Shown piece after piece: positions 34,923 through 41,867 of a stretch of 64,000 nucleotides of DNA; position 1 is the stretch's first letter, and every line of letters begins with the position of its first letter. Both the position numbers and the translations under genes were made by a program. The DNA comes from Streptomyces sp. NBC_01353 (lineage in GTDB: Bacteria; Actinomycetota; Actinomycetes; Streptomycetales; Streptomycetaceae): NCBI RefSeq assembly GCF_036237275.1, contig NZ_CP108352.1, forward strand, positions 6,014,001 through 6,078,000, given 5' to 3'. The notes below the pieces were generated by a model. It searched no databases, was not told where the DNA came from, and saw nothing but the letters and a program-made list of their open reading frames with translations.

Positions 34923-35348
34923 TTAGTACCAGCCGTTGGCCTGCCAGAACGCCCAGGCGGCGTTCGGGGAGCCGTAGCGCTCGTTCATGTAGTTGAGGCC
35001 CCACTTGATCTGGGTGGCCGGGTTGGTCTTCCAGTCCGAGCCGGCCGAAGACATCTTCGAGGCCGGGAGGGCCTGGACCAGGCCGTAGGCGCCGCTGGAC
35101 GAGTTGGTGGCGGAGGGGTTCCAGCCGGACTCGTGAGAGACGATCTTGCTGAAGGCCTGGTACTGCGAAGCCGGAACGATCTTCTTCGCAATCTCCTGCG
35201 GAGTCGCGGCCGAAGCCGTGGACGTCGTGCCGAGCACCGCACCCGACGCGCCCAGCAGCACGGCTGCGGACACGGCGAAGGTCTTCTTGCGGGACGAGAC
35301 ACGAGTGGAGAGCGAGCGGAACACGAAGCGACCTAACGTCGGGGACAT
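34923..35348 (-). CDS. secreted transglycosylase-like (lysozyme fold) protein
   Basis: A 141-aa protein from ATG 35348. Signal peptide: basic MSPTLGRFVFRSLSTRVSSR, hydrophobic KTFAVSAAVLLGASGAVLG, cleavage after TASA. The mature domain ATPQEIAKKIVPASQYQAFS, IVSHESGWNPSATNSSSGAY (catalytic Glu in HESGW), GLVQALPASKMSSAGSDW and NPATQIKWGLNYMNERYGSP with the AFWQANGWY end is the compact transglycosylase domain common in Streptomyces cell-wall remodelling proteins. Acts outside the cell on peptidoglycan. The 260-bp region upstream is GC-rich and partly structured; no riboswitch could be confirmed there. Confidence 0.88.
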   Translation of the reverse strand: MSPTLGRFVFRSLSTRVSSRKKTFAVSAAVLLGASGAVLGTTSTASAATPQEIAKKIVPASQYQAFSKIVSHESGWNPSATNSSSGAYGLVQALPASKMSSAGSDWKTNPATQIKWGLNYMNERYGSPNAAWAFWQANGWY

Positions 35349-35609: not shown

Positions 35610-36476
35610 CTACTCCGCTTCGTACGTGACGTAGGTCCTGTGGGGCGCCTCACCCCGAGGGGGCCCTTCCGGGGCCTCGAATGTGACCTGGGCCTCGAAG
35701 TTCGCCCGCCGCGTGGCCCGCCGAAGCGCCTTGAGAAGGGTCCGGCCAACGGTGAGTGTGAGCACCACCGTGAGAGCGGCCCGGCCGAGGTCCCAGCCGA
35801 GGGAGGTGGCGAGGACGTACGCGAGGAAGCGGACCAGGTTCTCGTGGACCGGGTCGCCGGGGACGAAGGAGATCCCCGTCCCGAGGCCACCCACGGTGAC
35901 CCAGCCGTACAGATTGGTGACGGTGCCGTACGCGAACGCCGCGACGAACCCGTACGCCGACAGCATCAGCAGCTCGCCCCGGCCCCTGACCTTCTCCGGC
36001 CCCGGCAGCAGACCCGCGCCCATGGTGAACCAGCCCATCGCCAGCATCTGGACCGGCATCCATGGGCCCACACCGCCCGTGAGCAGGGCGGACGCGAACA
36101 TCGTCACCGCGCCGAGGACGAAACCGAACCCCGGCCCGAGGACCCGGCCGCTCAGCACCATCAGGAAGAACATCGGCTCCAGGCCCGCCGTCCCCGCCCC
36201 GAGCGGGCGCAGCGCCGCTCCCACGGCAGCCAGCACGCCCAGCATCGCGACCGCCTTCGCGTCCATCCCGCAGTCGGCGATCGTGGCGACCACCACCGCG
36301 ATCAGGAGAGGGAGGAGGGCGGCGAAGAACCAGGGGGCGTCGGCGGCGTGCGTGGTCACGGCCGAGGAGGCGTCCGCGAAGAGGGGCCAGCCGATGGCGA
36401 TCAGCCCGATGACGGAGACCAGGACGAGGGCGGCGACCGAACGCGGACCGAGCCGGACGGGTCCTCTGCCGCTCAC
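35610..36476 (-). CDS. ECF transporter S component (substrate-binding membrane subunit)
   Basis: A 288-aa protein from GTG 36476 (GTGA overlap with the ATPase stop). Six or more hydrophobic segments: SVAALVLVSVIGLIAIGWPL, APWFFAALLPLLIAVVVATI, AVAMLGVLAAVGAALRPLGA, FFLMVLSGRVLGPGFGFVLG, FASALLTGGVGPWMPVQMLA and LRFLAYVLATSLGWDLGRA-like. The S-component feature GRVLGPGFGFVLGAVTMFAS then GVGPWMPVQMLAMGW fits ECF S proteins of the corrinoid/cobalt group. Terminal gene of the riboswitch operon. Substrate inferred as cobalamin precursor or cobalt. Confidence 0.82.
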   Translation of the reverse strand: MSGRGPVRLGPRSVAALVLVSVIGLIAIGWPLFADASSAVTTHAADAPWFFAALLPLLIAVVVATIADCGMDAKAVAMLGVLAAVGAALRPLGAGTAGLEPMFFLMVLSGRVLGPGFGFVLGAVTMFASALLTGGVGPWMPVQMLAMGWFTMGAGLLPGPEKVRGRGELLMLSAYGFVAAFAYGTVTNLYGWVTVGGLGTGISFVPGDPVHENLVRFLAYVLATSLGWDLGRAALTVVLTLTVGRTLLKALRRATRRANFEAQVTFEAPEGPPRGEAPHRTYVTYEAE

Positions 36477-38533
36477 AGCGCCTCCCTGACCTGCTCGACC
36501 GTGAGCCACGGCTGCGGGGCGAGGATCTTGGCGACCTGAGGGGAGAAGGCGGGGGAGGAGACGACGACCTCGGCCGTCGGACCGTCCGCGACGACCTCGC
36601 CGCCCGCCAGGATCACCACCCGGTGCGCCAGCTCGGCGGCCAGCTCCACGTCGTGCGTGGCGAGCACGATGGCGTGGCCGTCGGCGGCCAGCTCGCGCAG
36701 GTGCGCGACGAGACGGGCCTTGGCCGCGTAGTCGAGACCGCGGGTCGGCTCGTCGAGGAGCAGGAGCGGGGGGCGCCCGGTCAGCACGACGGCCAGGGCG
36801 AGCGCGAGGCGCTGGCCCTCGGACAGGTCGCGGGGGTGGGTGTCGTCCGCGACGCCCGGCAGCAGCTCGGACACCAGGGCCCGGCAGGTACCGGGCGCGG
36901 CGCCCGCGTCGGTGTCGGCGGCGGAGCATTCGGCGGCGACGGTGTCGGCGTACAGCAGATCGCGCGGCTCCTGCGGTACGAGCCCCACCTGCCGGATCAG
37001 CTCGCGGGGGTCGGTCCGGTGGGGGACGCGGCCGGAGACGAGGACGGCGCCGGAGGTGGGGGTGACGGTGCCGACGAGGGCGTTGAGCAGGGTGGACTTG
37101 CCGGCGCCGTTACGCCCCATGAGCGCGACGGTCTCGCCGGCCCGGACCTTCAGGTCCACCAGCCGAAGCGCCTCGACGCGCCCGCGCCGGACGCCGAGGG
37201 CGTCGACCTCGACGAGTTGGTCGGCGGGCGAGACCCCGCCAGGCCGGGGGCGCCGCCGGAAGAAGGACATTCCCCCACCCCACCCTCCCCCAGAGCTTCG
37301 CCTGGAAGGTACCCCCATCCCTGCGGTGTCCATGAGCGGCACCACCGCGGGCCGCCGGGGACTGGTGGGGAGCTGAGACCCGGGGGCTGCCGCCCCCGAA
37401 TCCTGCGGGGCGGCGGCTTCGCGCCGCACGGGCGTGGGGTTTCCCTGGGCGGCGGCTTCGCGCCGCGGGGGTTGGGCGCCTTGCCCGGGGTCGGCTTCGT
37501 GCCGCACGGGCGTGGGGTTCCCCTGGGCGGCGGCTTCGTGCCGCACGGGCCGGGTGGCTTGACCAGCGGCGATTTCGGGCCGTGCGTCGGTATTCGGCCC
37601 CGCCGGCGTTTGAGGCGCGGGGGGCTGGGGGCGCAGCCCCCGGTTACGGGATGGGGGTACCTCCCAGGCGAAGCTCTGGGGGAGGGCGGGGTGGGGGAGA
37701 GGCCCCACAGGGGCCGCCTCGGGGGCTCGGGCCTCCAGGCGGGACCGCAGGTCGCCGGCCCGGCGTCGCGCGTCGCGGACCGTCAAGGGCAGCGGCGACC
37801 AGCCCGCCAGCCGCCCCAGGGCCACCACCGGCGGGTGTACCGCCGAGATCGACATGATCTCGGCCGGTGGGCCCATGGCGCCCTCCGGCAGGAGGATCAC
37901 CTGGTCCGCGTACTGGACCACCCGCTCCAGGCGGTGCTCCGCCAGCAGGACCGTCGTGCCCAGGTCGTGCACCAGACGCTGGAGCACCGCCAGGACGTCC
38001 TCCGCAGCCGCCGGGTCCAGCGCGGACGTCGGCTCGTCGAGGACCAGGACCTCGGGGTGCGGGGTCAGCACGGAGCCGATCGCCACCCGCTGCTGCTGGC
38101 CGCCGGAGAGCGTGGCGATCGGCCGGTCGCGGAGCTCCGCGAGGCCCAGCAGGTCCAGGGTCTCCTCGACCCGGCGCCGCATCACCTCGGGTGCGAGGCC
38201 CAGGGACTCCATCCCGTACGCCAGCTCGTCCTCGACCGTGTCCGTGACGAAGTGCGCGAGCGGGTCCTGCCCCACGGTGCCGACCACGTCCGCCAGTTCG
38301 CGGGGCCGGTGCGTGCGGGTGTCCCGGCCCGCGACCGTGACGCGGCCGGTCAGCGTGCCGCCCGTGAAGTGCGGGACGAGCCCCGACACCGCGCCGAGCA
38401 GCGTCGACTTCCCGACCCCCGACGGGCCGACCAGCAGGACCAGTTCGCCCTCCGGGATCGTCAGGTTCAGGTCGCGCAGCGTGGGCTCCGACTCCTCCCC
38501 GTACCGCACCGAGACGTTCTCGAACCGGATCAC
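36473..38533 (-). CDS. fused double ECF-type ABC ATPase
   Basis: A 686-aa protein from GTG 38533 (overlaps EcfT stop). First ATPase: Walker A GPSGVGKST at residues 36-44, Q-loop VGQDPLAHFVTDTVEDE, signature LSGGQQQRVAIG, Walker B VLVLDEPTSALDPAAAE, switch AEHRLERV. A 150- to 170-residue linker, low complexity and repeated (AAAQGNPTPVR occurs twice), follows. Second ATPase: Walker A GRNGAGKST, signature LSEGQRLALA, Walker B LLLLDEPTRGLDY, switch THDVELA. The two halves correspond to EcfA1/EcfA2, here joined; VGQDPLAHFVTDTVEDELAY is a typical cobalt/B12 ECF ATPase motif. It energises uptake with EcfT and the S component. Confidence 0.9.
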   Translation of the reverse strand: MIRFENVSVRYGEESEPTLRDLNLTIPEGELVLLVGPSGVGKSTLLGAVSGLVPHFTGGTLTGRVTVAGRDTRTHRPRELADVVGTVGQDPLAHFVTDTVEDELAYGMESLGLAPEVMRRRVEETLDLLGLAELRDRPIATLSGGQQQRVAIGSVLTPHPEVLVLDEPTSALDPAAAEDVLAVLQRLVHDLGTTVLLAEHRLERVVQYADQVILLPEGAMGPPAEIMSISAVHPPVVALGRLAGWSPLPLTVRDARRRAGDLRSRLEARAPEAAPVGPLPHPALPQSFAWEVPPSRNRGLRPQPPAPQTPAGPNTDARPEIAAGQATRPVRHEAAAQGNPTPVRHEADPGQGAQPPRREAAAQGNPTPVRREAAAPQDSGAAAPGSQLPTSPRRPAVVPLMDTAGMGVPSRRSSGGGWGGGMSFFRRRPRPGGVSPADQLVEVDALGVRRGRVEALRLVDLKVRAGETVALMGRNGAGKSTLLNALVGTVTPTSGAVLVSGRVPHRTDPRELIRQVGLVPQEPRDLLYADTVAAECSAADTDAGAAPGTCRALVSELLPGVADDTHPRDLSEGQRLALALAVVLTGRPPLLLLDEPTRGLDYAAKARLVAHLRELAADGHAIVLATHDVELAAELAHRVVILAGGEVVADGPTAEVVVSSPAFSPQVAKILAPQPWLTVEQVREAL
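37272..37698. repeat. Streptomyces GC-rich palindromic repeats inside coding linker
   Basis: Two inverted copies of a block flank the linker: 37272-37319 (CCCCCAGAGCTTCGCCTGG then AAGGTACCCCCATCC) and 37649-37698 (GGATGGGGGTACC, CAGGCGAAGCTCTGGGGGAG). The segment 37598-37650 contains CCCCGCCGGCGTTTGAGGCG and a GGGGGCTGGGGGCGCAGCCCCC hairpin-type motif, a form of the intergenic repeat scattered through Streptomyces genomes. Between them are several GGCGGCTTCGCGCCGC-type units. All this is translated in frame as the ATPase linker. Confidence 0.75.
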
Positions 38534-39627
38534 GAAGACTCCTTGGAGACGGGCACAGGGGCCACGAACGCGGGGACCAGGCCCACCAGGACCGACAGTG
38601 CGGGCCACACCGGAAGCTCCGGCGCGACGAGCGGGACGACGCCGGGGTGCAGCGCCTCGTACGCGTAGACGTTCGCCCAGATCATCAGCGCCGCCACCGC
38701 CACCCCCGAACCGGCGACCAGCCACGCCCGCACCCCCCACCGGTCCGGCCGGTACCGGGTCCGTACCGCCCGGCGGCCACCGAGCCGGAGTCCGGCCATG
38801 GCGGCGACGAGACCGACGACGACCAGCGGCAGCCCGTACCCCGCGCCCTGCGCCGCCAGCAGACCGTACGAACCGGCGCACACCCCGAGCAGCCCGCCGA
38901 GTGTCAGGACGTTCGTCGTCCGCCGTACGGCCGTCGGCACCTGCGCCGTACGTCCGTATCCGCGCGCGTCCATCGAGGCCGCCACCGCGATCGACCGCTC
39001 CAGCGCGCCCTCCAGCACCGGCAGCCCGATCTGGAGCACCGCGCGCACCCCGCCCGTCGGCCGCCCCCGCAGCCGCCGGGCCGTCCGCAGCCGCATCACG
39101 TCCGCGACCATGTTCGGCGCGAAGGTCATCGCCACGACGACGGCGACCCCGACCTCGTACAGCGCGCCCGGCAGCGACTTGAGCAGCCGCGCCGGGTTGG
39201 CGAGCGCGTTCGCCGCGCCCACACAGATCAGCAGGGTCGCCAGCTTCGCCCCGTCGTACACCGCGAAGACGACCTGCTCCGCCGTCACCCGGCCACCGAT
39301 CCGCACGCCCTGCGCCCAGTCCGGCATCGGCACCTCGGGCAGGGTGAACAGCTCGTACGTTCCCGGGATCGCAGATCCGAGCACGATCGAGAACACCACC
39401 CGCAGGGCCACGACGAACAGGCCCAGCTTCACGAACGCCCCGTACGAGCGCGCCCAGGGGGCGTCCGTACGGCGGGCCGCGACGACATAGCCCGCGACCG
39501 CGACGATCAGGCCGAGGAGGAGCGGGTCGGTGGTACGGGAGGCGGCCACCGCGAGCCCCAGCGCCCAGAGCCACCAGGCGCCGGCGTGCAAGGCGTTGGA
39601 GCGGTTCGCCTCGGGGGCACGGATCAT
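38530..39627 (-). CDS. EcfT-type transmembrane subunit (CbiQ family)
   Basis: A 365-aa protein from ATG 39627, overlapping the previous stop as ATGA and the following start as GTGA. N-terminal TMs (AWWLWALGLAVAASR, DPLLLGLIVAVAGYVVAARR, VKLGLFVVALRVVFSIVLGS) then the CbiQ/EcfT coupling region TFAPNMVADVMRLRTARRLR and GLPVLEGALERSIAVAASMD, ARGYGRTAQVPTAVRR (the Ala-Arg-Gly signature contacting the ATPases), and further C-terminal TMs. It couples ATP hydrolysis to the S component. Slightly longer than typical EcfT because of the extra C-terminal membrane segments. Confidence 0.9.
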   Translation of the reverse strand: MIRAPEANRSNALHAGAWWLWALGLAVAASRTTDPLLLGLIVAVAGYVVAARRTDAPWARSYGAFVKLGLFVVALRVVFSIVLGSAIPGTYELFTLPEVPMPDWAQGVRIGGRVTAEQVVFAVYDGAKLATLLICVGAANALANPARLLKSLPGALYEVGVAVVVAMTFAPNMVADVMRLRTARRLRGRPTGGVRAVLQIGLPVLEGALERSIAVAASMDARGYGRTAQVPTAVRRTTNVLTLGGLLGVCAGSYGLLAAQGAGYGLPLVVVGLVAAMAGLRLGGRRAVRTRYRPDRWGVRAWLVAGSGVAVAALMIWANVYAYEALHPGVVPLVAPELPVWPALSVLVGLVPAFVAPVPVSKESS

Positions 39628-40364
39628 GCGCGGCGGCGTGCCTTCCAGATCGCGGCGCCGCCGAGCGCGAGGACGGCAGCCCCGCCCACGACGATCCCGG
39701 CGGAAGGACCGCCGTCGTCGCCGTCGGCCTTTTGGGTCGCCGACGGCGTGGGATTCGTGGCCGTCGTCCCCGCCGGGGACGACGGCTTCGTCTCCGCCAC
39801 CTGCTCGCCGCAGCCCTTCGCCGGATACCCGGCGATCCCGCAGAGCAGGGCCGCGCTGTCGTACCGCAGTGGCTTCACCACGGCGGCCAGCGCCTCCGCG
39901 CCCGTCGCGTCCTCACGGACCTGCGCGCAGCCGACCTTCAGCCGCTGGGCCGGCGGGGTCTCGCCGGGCGGGGCGTCCTCGGGGCCGCCGAAGTCGACGA
40001 CGACCGCGACACGCTTGGTGTCCGCCCTCTCCTCGACATCGGCGCAGATCGTCGTGAAGGAGGGGGCGGCGGAGGGCTGGGAGGCGTCACTGGTGTCGTT
40101 GCTGAGGGCGAAGCGGAAGCCGATCGCGTCCCCGTCCCCGGGGCGGGCGGTCGCCGGGCCCTGCGTCGCGTACGTCCACTTCCCGCCGCCGTCGCTCTCC
40201 CAGAACGACCAGTACCGGTATCCCGCGGCCTGCGCGGGAGCGGCGACGGCCAGCGTCAGTACGACACCGGTCGCCGCGCCGGCCGCGACCCTGACCGCGC
40301 GGCGGCCGGAGGCCCCGGCCACGGCGCCGAGAACCCGGGGCGTCCAGAGCCGGGGCGTCCTCAC
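39624..40364 (-). CDS. surface-anchored SCO2322-family-like protein of B12 operon
   Basis: A 246-aa protein from GTG 40364, overlapping the alpha-barrel stop (GTGA). Signal peptide (AVRVAAGAATGVVLTLAVAA then PAQA), mature start AAGYRYWSFWESDGGGKWTY, ATQGPATARPGDGDAIGFRF, then TTICADVEERADTKRVAVVV and CGIAGYPAKGCGEQVAETKP, a Ser/Thr/Pro stretch, a C-terminal TM (AGIVVGGAAVLALGGAAIW) and basic KARRRA. Thus it is tethered to the outer face of the membrane. Such proteins are annotated as SCO2322 family in Streptomyces (from memory). The W-rich YRYWSFW...W.YATQGPAT start and placement with an alpha-barrel protein recall the small beta domain of transcobalamin-type proteins; this is inference. Confidence 0.72.
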   Translation of the reverse strand: MRTPRLWTPRVLGAVAGASGRRAVRVAAGAATGVVLTLAVAAPAQAAGYRYWSFWESDGGGKWTYATQGPATARPGDGDAIGFRFALSNDTSDASQPSAAPSFTTICADVEERADTKRVAVVVDFGGPEDAPPGETPPAQRLKVGCAQVREDATGAEALAAVVKPLRYDSAALLCGIAGYPAKGCGEQVAETKPSSPAGTTATNPTPSATQKADGDDGGPSAGIVVGGAAVLALGGAAIWKARRRA

Positions 40365-41617
40365 TTCTTGCGCCCGCTCAGCAGGAAGCCGATGCCGACG
40401 CCGACCACCATGCCGATGCCGATGATCCACCACAGGTCGAAGGAGCCGGAGTCCCCGTCCCCCTCGCTCGGCGACGCGCTCGCGGACGGCGTGCTCTGCG
40501 GCGCGGGGCCGGTGGCGTTCAGCTCCTTGACGAGGTCGGTCGAGCCGAAGGCGCGGGGGTCGACACCCATCGCGTTCGAGGCGAAGACCAGCTGCGCCCA
40601 GGCGGCGGGGCCGCTCTCCCTGGCCCAGGCAGCGGAGTTCTGCTGCAGCCAGGTCAGCGCCCCGGTCGCCTCCTTGGTGGCACCGGTCGCGGCGAGTGCG
40701 ACGACGGCGTCGGCGGTGTTGCCGAAGTCGGGCAGCTCGGTCGGGTCGGTGGCGCCGGGCATCGGCGGGGTGTTCAGGTGACCGGTCCGCGCGAGCGCGC
40801 CGGCCAGGTAGGAGGCGCCGTTGAGCGCGGCCCGCTCGGCGGAGGGCTTCGGCAGGTCCTTGCAGGTCGGGGACTGCTCGGGCTTCACCCCGCCGGCGGT
40901 GATGCCCTTGCCGAGCCCGGCGATGGTGGCGGCCGCGGTGGCGTCGGCGTTCGCGAACAGCCGCCCGTCCTTGTCCGGCTGGTACGCGAAGGCGCCCGGG
41001 CCGTCCTTCGTGGAGCAGGGGGTCGCGAAGGTGAGCAGGGCGTCGTACGGCGTCCGGCCCTCGACCGACTTCACCTCGCCGGGCTTGTCGCCCAGGGCGG
41101 CGAGCGCGCTGACCACGAGGGAGGTCGAGTTGGCGTCGCTGGGGCTGCCGGGGTTGTAGCCCCAGCCGCCGTCCTTGTTCTGGACGCCCTTCAGCCAGCC
41201 GGAGCCCGCCTTGACGGCCTTGGACACCGCCTCGGGGTCGGCGCTCTGCTTCTGCACGGCGGCGAGGGCATGGAGGGCGACGGCGGTGGCGTTGGTGTCC
41301 AGCATCGTGGCCGGGGTGCACGGCTTGGCGGGGTCCGGCCGGTACGAGGAGAACGCGCCGCTCTCGCACTGCTGCCCCTTCAGCCAGGTCACGGCCTGCT
41401 CGGCGGGCTGCACCCCACTGATCCGCTGCGCGATGAAGGCGAGCGACTGGCGCCAGACACCGTCGTACGTCGGGTCCTTCGCGCCGTAGAGACCGGCGGG
41501 GATCACCGGTGCGGGCGTGGGGGTCGGAGAGGGCGCGGCGGACGCGGCGGGGGCCAGCGCGGTGCAGAGCACGGCGGCGGTGGCGAACGCGGCGGCGCCG
41601 CGGCGGACGGTGGTCAT
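40361..41617 (-). CDS. surface-anchored alpha/alpha-barrel (prenyltransferase/squalene-cyclase repeat) protein
   Basis: A 418-aa protein from ATG 41617 (AGGAGAGG 10 nt upstream). Signal peptide MTTVRRGAAAFATAAVLCTA to APAASA. Repeats of the terpene-cyclase/prenyltransferase type: AEQAVTWLKGQQCESGAFSS, TNATAVALHALAAVQKQSAD, VKAGSGWLKGVQNKDGGWGY, ANSTSLVVSALAALGDKPGE and NTADAVVALAATGATKEATG. The C-terminus has a TM (WWIIGIGMVVGVGIGFLLS) and GRKK, so it is anchored on the outside. No catalytic DXDD motif, so it is not an active cyclase. It is the first gene after the cobalamin riboswitch; human transcobalamin and intrinsic factor have the same barrel fold, suggesting corrinoid binding (inference). 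Confidence 0.83.
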   Translation of the reverse strand: MTTVRRGAAAFATAAVLCTALAPAASAAPSPTPTPAPVIPAGLYGAKDPTYDGVWRQSLAFIAQRISGVQPAEQAVTWLKGQQCESGAFSSYRPDPAKPCTPATMLDTNATAVALHALAAVQKQSADPEAVSKAVKAGSGWLKGVQNKDGGWGYNPGSPSDANSTSLVVSALAALGDKPGEVKSVEGRTPYDALLTFATPCSTKDGPGAFAYQPDKDGRLFANADATAAATIAGLGKGITAGGVKPEQSPTCKDLPKPSAERAALNGASYLAGALARTGHLNTPPMPGATDPTELPDFGNTADAVVALAATGATKEATGALTWLQQNSAAWARESGPAAWAQLVFASNAMGVDPRAFGSTDLVKELNATGPAPQSTPSASASPSEGDGDSGSFDLWWIIGIGMVVGVGIGFLLSGRKK

Positions 41618-41699
41618 GCGTGCTGGCCTCTCCTGCGGCCGGGCACCGGCACGCACAAGGCACCAGGCTCGGCTCCGTATTCCTCGACGGTGCCGGCGG

Positions 41700-41830
41700 T
41701 CACGTCCCGACGGGGCATTCCGACTCACCGTCGACGGCTTGAGGACGACGGTTCACGGTTGCGGGTCAGTGCCGGAATTGCACCGGCTTCCCCCCGTACG
41801 GGCATGATGACGACTCGCACACTCTACCGG
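41700..41830 (-). ncRNA. cobalamin riboswitch
   Basis: Reading the reverse strand: GGGGGGAAGCCGGTGCAATT, CCGGCACTGACCCGCAACCG, TGAACC, then a variable arm and GTGAGTCGGAATGCC. These are the conserved B12-riboswitch blocks (GGGAAnccGGUG, the B12 box GCACUGACCCGCAACCGUGA, AGUCGGAnnCC). It precedes the alpha-barrel gene at 41617 with about 85 nt to the ATG, so it controls the five-gene ECF operon: repression when cobalamin is plentiful (family knowledge). Ends are approximate. Confidence 0.9.
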
Positions 41831-41867
41831 CCCGTACCCTTTGCGACCGGTGGGTGCGAGGCGCCTC

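Follow-up and report, generated by a model that had tools for sequence, protein, structure and literature searches.

The stretch of DNA analysed here (the window; 64,000 nucleotides of Streptomyces sp. NBC_01353, contig NZ_CP108352.1, G000:C1:6014001-6078000) carries on its minus strand a cobalamin riboswitch followed by five genes, which encode an SCO2321-family alpha/alpha barrel, an SCO2322-family protein, and the coupling protein (EcfT), fused double ATPase (EcfAA') and S component of an energy-coupling factor (ECF) transporter. Judged from sequence comparisons and predicted structures, the operon very probably (about 0.82) encodes an importer of a corrinoid, either B12 or a precursor, whereby the barrel and the SCO2322 protein together would hold the corrinoid and deliver it to the S component. 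A sequence-only reading of the window had already proposed such a receptor, and the comparisons support it: the riboswitch association extends across the phylum, the corrin synthesis marker CbiC is absent in most genomes carrying the system, parts of the system are fused in several clusters, a DUF4430 domain takes the position of SCO2322 in a sister group, and the S components of that group match CbrT.

Operon structure and conservation in Streptomyces

The riboswitch aptamer lies at 41692-41846 (minus strand; RF00174, 34.6 bits at a gathering score of 31.5) and is the sole Rfam match over gathering within the window; seven RF00174 matches are present in the window's own genome. On the same strand follow the genes for the barrel (40361-41617), the SCO2322-family protein (39624-40364), EcfT (38530-39627), EcfAA' (36473-38533) and the S component (35610-36476), with a 4-nt overlap at all four junctions; that the five genes overlap had already been read from the letters alone. 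Directly 3' of the aptamer match, a conserved hairpin (41675-41690, minus strand) has four stem pairs (alignment columns 183-186 with 195-198), which are kept in 33 of 33 sequences and, being invariant, give no covariation support. The hairpin is perhaps part of the expression platform.

The Streptomyces-type set consisted of the best 80 of 547 related loci, 79 titled Streptomyces and one Microtetraspora. Next to the barrel, the SCO2322 gene was found in all 80 loci, EcfT in 79, EcfA in 78 and the S component in 74; all six loci with missing genes are ended by contig edges. Given this conservation over 80 loci, the five-gene arrangement is more than chance. Both surface proteins of the window have an N-terminal hydrophobic stretch, and every one of the 81 barrels and 81 SCO2322 proteins, those of the window among them, has a C-terminal hydrophobic stretch with a basic tail, which agrees with the signal peptides and membrane anchors assigned to the pair earlier. 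Both are thus predicted to be exported and membrane-anchored.

With a covariance model built from the window and 32 Streptomyces-type loci, the riboswitch was detected ahead of the barrel gene in all 48 held-out loci (64.6-189.1 bits); these loci are related to those used for training. Rfam's own gathering score was reached in three of the eight Streptomyces-type loci tried. A strict regular expression for the B12 box, which recovered only 34 of the 80 loci, was abandoned in favour of the covariance model. Three loci (L040, L052 and L064) bear a short, GC-rich, inverted-repeat-like insert within the aptamer near the B12 box, and the covariance model still matches them.

Clusters and riboswitches across Actinomycetota

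A search of 296 Actinomycetota genomes with the family models NF053823 (SCO2321) and NF040672 (SCO2322) gave matches in 97 genomes (9 over the cut-off) and 44 genomes (10 over the cut-off), respectively. From these matches, 38 regions were chosen and fetched as a first set, which was scanned with the Streptomyces family profiles and an iterated SCO2322 profile; 20 more were chosen from the matches of PF14478 (DUF4430), found in 42 of 246 genomes, as a second set. An SCO2322-like domain was present in 33 of the 38 first-set loci, and 23 had the barrel, SCO2322 domain, EcfT, EcfA and S component all together by profile. The barrel lies elsewhere in the genome, apart from the ECF genes, in G134, G284, G102 and G166, each time with an RF00174 match of its own. 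By profile, DUF4430, EcfT, EcfA, S component and barrel occur together in 11 of the 20 second-set loci; six lack only a separate EcfT and/or S match and three lack the barrel. Wherever EcfT was found in this set, DUF4430 precedes it, in the place taken by SCO2322 in the first set.

A riboswitch was associated with a cluster when a same-strand RF00174 match lay at most 4 kb upstream of, or overlapped the start of, a cluster gene, and this was so in 51 of the 58 chosen loci. Genomes with any RF00174 match numbered 36 of 37 in the first set and 30 of 36 in the second, with the gathering score exceeded in 25 and 26 of them, respectively. Since 25 of the 37 first-set genomes have exactly one match, chance placement of the riboswitch is unlikely. 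One genome labelled with the same genus (G171) has, besides its Streptomyces-type cluster (L156), a second cluster (L157; G171:C1:3645000-3664000) that has a riboswitch of its own and comprises ECF, barrel, DUF4430 and non-permuted SCO2322-like genes.

Corrin synthesis and B12 use in carrier genomes

Carriers were defined as genomes whose fetched cluster contained ECF genes together with one or more surface genes, 48 in total with the window's own genome; left out were G036, G058 and G108, whose fetched stretch had no ECF genes, G143, G120 and G077, where no barrel was found in it, and all genomes from which no region had been fetched. CbiC, the precorrin-8X methylmutase that serves as a marker for synthesis of the corrin ring, was present in 7 of the 63 genomes searched, and a B12-binding domain in all 63. 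For the carriers, CbiC was absent in 42 of 48 (34 of 40 at a completeness of at least 90%) and the B12-binding domain present in 48 of 48. Most carriers therefore appear to use B12 without having a recognisable pathway for corrin synthesis, and their lack of CbiC speaks against cobalt import. A strong, near full-length match to FecCD, the BtuC-type permease family, occurred in 16 of the 48, and in the other 32 FecCD was absent or weak and partial (at most 35 bits). Neither CbiC nor a strong FecCD was found in 30 carriers. In the window's own genome, a strong FecCD permease match, probably part of a BtuFCD-type importer, follows another cobalamin riboswitch at a distance of about 1.3 kb (G000:C1:5432249-5434609).

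The surface pair

The window barrel belongs to the SCO2321 family (NF053823, 542.9 bits, cut-off 300), and its AlphaFold model (predicted local distance difference test score, pLDDT, 94.6) has a toroid fold that matches human transcobalamin 2bb5 with E 4.3e-4 and probability 1.00 at rank 29. In 79 of 81 barrels, the first 380 residues contain no DxDD, the motif of class II terpene cyclases. The small protein is predicted to be a beta domain (pLDDT 88.9), and its model in native order had no significant PDB match with Foldseek or VIA-align, which might be expected since the domain is permuted; nor did a relative turn up when the PDB was searched with the sequence of SCO2322 alone or with its non-permuted relatives. 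The structure comparison with transcobalamin proposed for both proteins gave a mixed picture: human transcobalamin is among the matches of the barrel, with terpene cyclases ranking higher, and no such match emerged for the small domain.

By family model, the small protein is an SCO2322 member (NF040672, 213 bits, cut-off 85). In its non-permuted relatives, strand-strand-helix-(C.IDG) comes first and YWSYW...VEGW second (secondary structure assigned by analogy to the SCO2322 model), and in the Streptomyces proteins these halves are swapped. Alignment of the two families with hhalign broke into two segments that follow each other in the opposite order (E 4.8e-12 and 7.4e-7), and rotating the Streptomyces alignment at residues 88-112 raised the score from about 69-72 to 110-111 in one colinear match of 101-103 columns. 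By these profile alignments, the Streptomyces SCO2322 protein is circularly permuted with respect to a family that has a distant relationship to DUF4430. The Streptomyces order was also found in G062, from another family of the class (176.2 bits, profile positions 3-143).

The non-permuted relatives align colinearly with DUF4430 at a score of 30.1 over 99 columns (E 9e-5 in a separate run), whereas 200 column shuffles peaked at 19.1 and four unrelated families at 19.8; on this comparison they are distant kin of DUF4430, not members. Matches to PF14478 itself were not seen: there was none at E 1 or better in the window SCO2322 protein, none in its genome, and none for the five stand-alone non-permuted relatives scanned. 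DUF4430 has been placed at the C-terminus of TCN proteins (PMC4350170). In the PDB, the DUF4430 profile reached haptocorrin 4kki at E 0.01, a step that is weak by itself because 3u7z, a putative metal-binding protein (E 0.0009), and a translation factor (E 0.0025) were reached as well. Four rows were dropped from the non-permuted SCO2322 alignment (34 left) and five more for alignment A3 (29 left); A2 is without L042 and L068, and A4 and A5 hold 20 of 21 DUF4430 rows and 25 of 29 rows, respectively.

The Streptomyces barrel also looks circularly permuted, as cutting it at 255 lifted its score against 14 chosen barrels from 190 (185 columns) to 278 (287 columns). This permutation is less certain because a toroid has internal repeats, and it is weakened by L175 and L184, barrels from outside Streptomyces that align colinearly with the Streptomyces barrel profile.

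Gene fusions join the parts of the system. Barrel and SCO2322-like domain share one open frame in L153 and L183, and S component and barrel do so in L227, L229 and L230, which are three genomes. The frame at L185:8454-11282 has two SCO2322-like domains behind a half with sub-threshold toroid matches only and is probably a third fusion of barrel and small domain. Cell-wall-binding repeats (PF04122) follow the fusion in L153 and L185 and, by eye, in L183.

The ECF module and its S component

The fused ATPase has two sets each of Walker A, signature and Walker B motifs, and ABC_tran matched it with 194.1 bits in two stretches. The match of EcfT to CbiQ stays under the Pfam cut-off (20.7 against 25 bits), and the position of EcfT between the surface pair and the ATPase is conserved across loci; the S component likewise stays below the cut-off for ECF_trnsprt (PF12822; 27.6 against 30.7 bits). 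The composition is that of an ECF transporter, with the ATPases over the cut-off and EcfT and S component below theirs, yet conserved in order and family.

When 11 S components of DUF4430-type clusters were combined into a profile, it had one PDB match at E of at most 1, to 6FNP_A (E 6.8e-24, residues 5-177 of 182), and a mixed S-component profile matched the same chain with E 5.2e-15; the S-component alignments A6, A8 and A9 were picked by hand and have 18, 14 and 11 rows. The entry 6FNP is the deposited ECF-CbrT structure (PMC5997447), and its 182-residue chain A would be CbrT itself. The Streptomyces S profile in turn finds the sister-cluster S components with E down to 1.3e-16. The window S component appears to be related to CbrT through these intermediates, and we propose that it is corrinoid-specific.

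Proposed mechanism and alternative explanations

When corrinoid is scarce, the riboswitch, presumably an OFF switch, would permit expression of the operon. The exported, membrane-anchored barrel and SCO2322 beta domain would then sandwich the corrinoid in the manner of the two domains of transcobalamin and hand it to the S component, whose transport across the membrane would be driven by the EcfT-EcfAA' module. A more specific version, in which the Streptomyces receptor is split and transcobalamin-like, with both halves permuted relative to most of the phylum, and in which the ECF importer depends on this extracellular receptor, has slightly better than even odds. To our knowledge, ECF importers as a rule work without a binding protein; if the more specific version is true, this rule fails in the corrinoid branch.

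Several observations weigh against the corrinoid-receptor reading. Among the structure matches of the barrel model, terpene cyclases, prenyltransferases and others outrank transcobalamin 2bb5, and G062 has the SCO2322, ECF and S genes with no barrel match in its genome. A direct comparison of DUF4430 with Streptomyces SCO2322 scored 20.7, with shuffles up to 20.6, and was discarded, being no better than shuffles whether rotated or unrotated. The window S component alone had no CbrT match in the PDB search, and the match was lost from a profile of closer S relatives (sister-group S components and L162 left out), so the CbrT link of the window protein runs via the sister group. Several of the weak, partial FecCD matches among the 32 carriers exceed the Pfam cut-off of 26.5. 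The window's own genome has CbiC and 11 FecCD matches including strong genes, one of them the gene that follows the other riboswitch mentioned above, and the operon therefore need not be its main source of B12. The association rule failed in seven of the 58 loci (L155, L162, L165, L182, L228, L234 and L235); scored among these misses are L155 (G016), where RF00174 precedes a barrel match that lies on the opposite strand from the ECF genes, L162, whose cluster is at a contig start, and L165, where the riboswitch is on another contig beside a second barrel match. In the 11 DUF4430-type loci L216-L226, the riboswitch lies 2.7-3.5 kb before the DUF4430 gene. Between the two, L216 and L217 have open frames of 873 and 893 aa, by eye secreted with a beta-propeller-like part followed by repeats, which may be a further surface part.

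The same genes might import cobalt for corrin synthesis, with the surface pair as an accessory, and the CbiQ-like, if sub-threshold, EcfT and the CbiC of the window's own genome would fit this. It is nevertheless very unlikely and was rejected for the absence of CbiC in most carriers, which have B12-binding domains all the same; moreover, no Pfam match to CbiM or CbiN at E 1 or better was found for the S component, EcfT or the surface proteins, and the sister S components match CbrT. A heme, another tetrapyrrole or a B12-related metabolite as the ligand, with the riboswitch merely coordinating uptake with B12 status, is the least probable explanation of all, even though the SLBB superfamily is expected to bind various ligands (PMC1796856): the sister S components resemble CbrT, the riboswitch recurs in 51 of 58 loci, and the small domain has its DUF4430 relationship.

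An importer of corrinoids in which barrel and SCO2322 form no joint pair, one serving as an enzyme or as a tether to the cell wall while the S component captures the ligand alone like Lactobacillus CbrT, is improbable, if less so than the two previous explanations. Purified ECF-CbrT alone transports cobalamin in liposomes (PMC5997447), the best structural matches of the barrel are terpene cyclases, and G062 does without a detectable barrel. Against this stand the fusions of barrel and small domain in L153 and L183, those of barrel and S component in three genomes, and the scarcity of DxDD in the barrels. The paired corrinoid receptor delivering to the S component remains the preferred reading.

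Relation to known systems and significance

The idea of a B12 receptor of this kind is not new, as it was proposed by Burroughs et al. (2007), who established the SLBB superfamily, reported fusions of toroid and SLBB domains, predicted that bacteria usually without B12 synthesis have operons containing CbiO and CbiQ, and proposed B12 scavenging; their transcobalamin clade comprises animals, low-GC Gram-positives, planctomycetes and, less often, euryarchaea (PMC1796856). The Actinomycetota clusters share with these bacterial systems the surface toroid and putative SLBB domains, the CbiO/CbiQ neighbours, host genomes that mostly lack B12 synthesis and the scavenging proposal, whereas SCO2321/SCO2322, the permuted form, riboswitches and S-component fusions are not mentioned in the accessible part of that account (PMC1796856). 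In vertebrate transcobalamin, haptocorrin and intrinsic factor, an alpha/alpha toroid and a beta-grasp (SLBB) domain jointly hold cobalamin (PMC1796856). The toroid barrel with its 2bb5 match and the reach of the DUF4430 profile to haptocorrin are points of likeness, but the Streptomyces domains are two membrane-anchored proteins, the small one permuted, encoded in an ECF operon.

CbrT binds cobalamin (Cbl) and cobinamide (Cbi) with nM affinity (PMC5997447). The ECF-CbrT transporter of Lactobacillus delbrueckii shares the ECF architecture, and its CbrT is matched by the S components of the DUF4430-type clusters; it differs in that no extracellular receptor pair is mentioned for it in the portion of the report available, and in that its ECF module is common to several S components (PMC5997447), whereas the Streptomyces module is encoded with one. 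BtuFCD likewise imports B12, and one FecCD gene of the window's own genome follows a cobalamin riboswitch, but it belongs to a different permease family, strong members of which are absent in 32 of 48 carriers.

In the open-access literature searched, no paper was found on SCO2322, SCO2320, SCO2323 or SCO2324, nor any joining cobalamin riboswitch, Streptomyces, ECF and S component; the titles and abstract openings of the papers listed gave no description of the SCO2321/SCO2322 ECF operon. Only SCO2321 appears, in one paper, where a skin-penetrating peptide was derived from the signal sequence of the S. coelicolor protein, which is called hypothetical (PMC9237094). New relative to this literature are the Actinomycetota branch with SCO2321 and SCO2322, the permuted form, the phylum-wide riboswitch association, the fusions of S component and barrel, and the CbrT link of the branch's S components.

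The analysis provides a testable function for two families named by locus tag only and places a transcobalamin-like receptor, split and in Streptomyces permuted, in Actinomycetota. It also suggests that an ECF importer has a surface receptor of its own, the receptor being fused directly with the S component in three genomes. If true, this may be the main B12 route in the 30 carriers without detected CbiC or strong BtuC-type permease, and it would bear on the origin of the animal B12 carriers.

Other features of the locus

The EcfAA' linker (37271-37698) holds a dispersed genomic repeat with inverted arms of 51 nt (96% complementary), for which a query of 91 bases gave 11 matches in the genome, two within the linker and nine elsewhere; the linker is lengthened further by 39-nt tandem repeats at 37404-37559. 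Just downstream of the operon, on the same strand, lies a small, probably unrelated SLT-domain transglycosylase gene (34923-35348, 39.7 bits).

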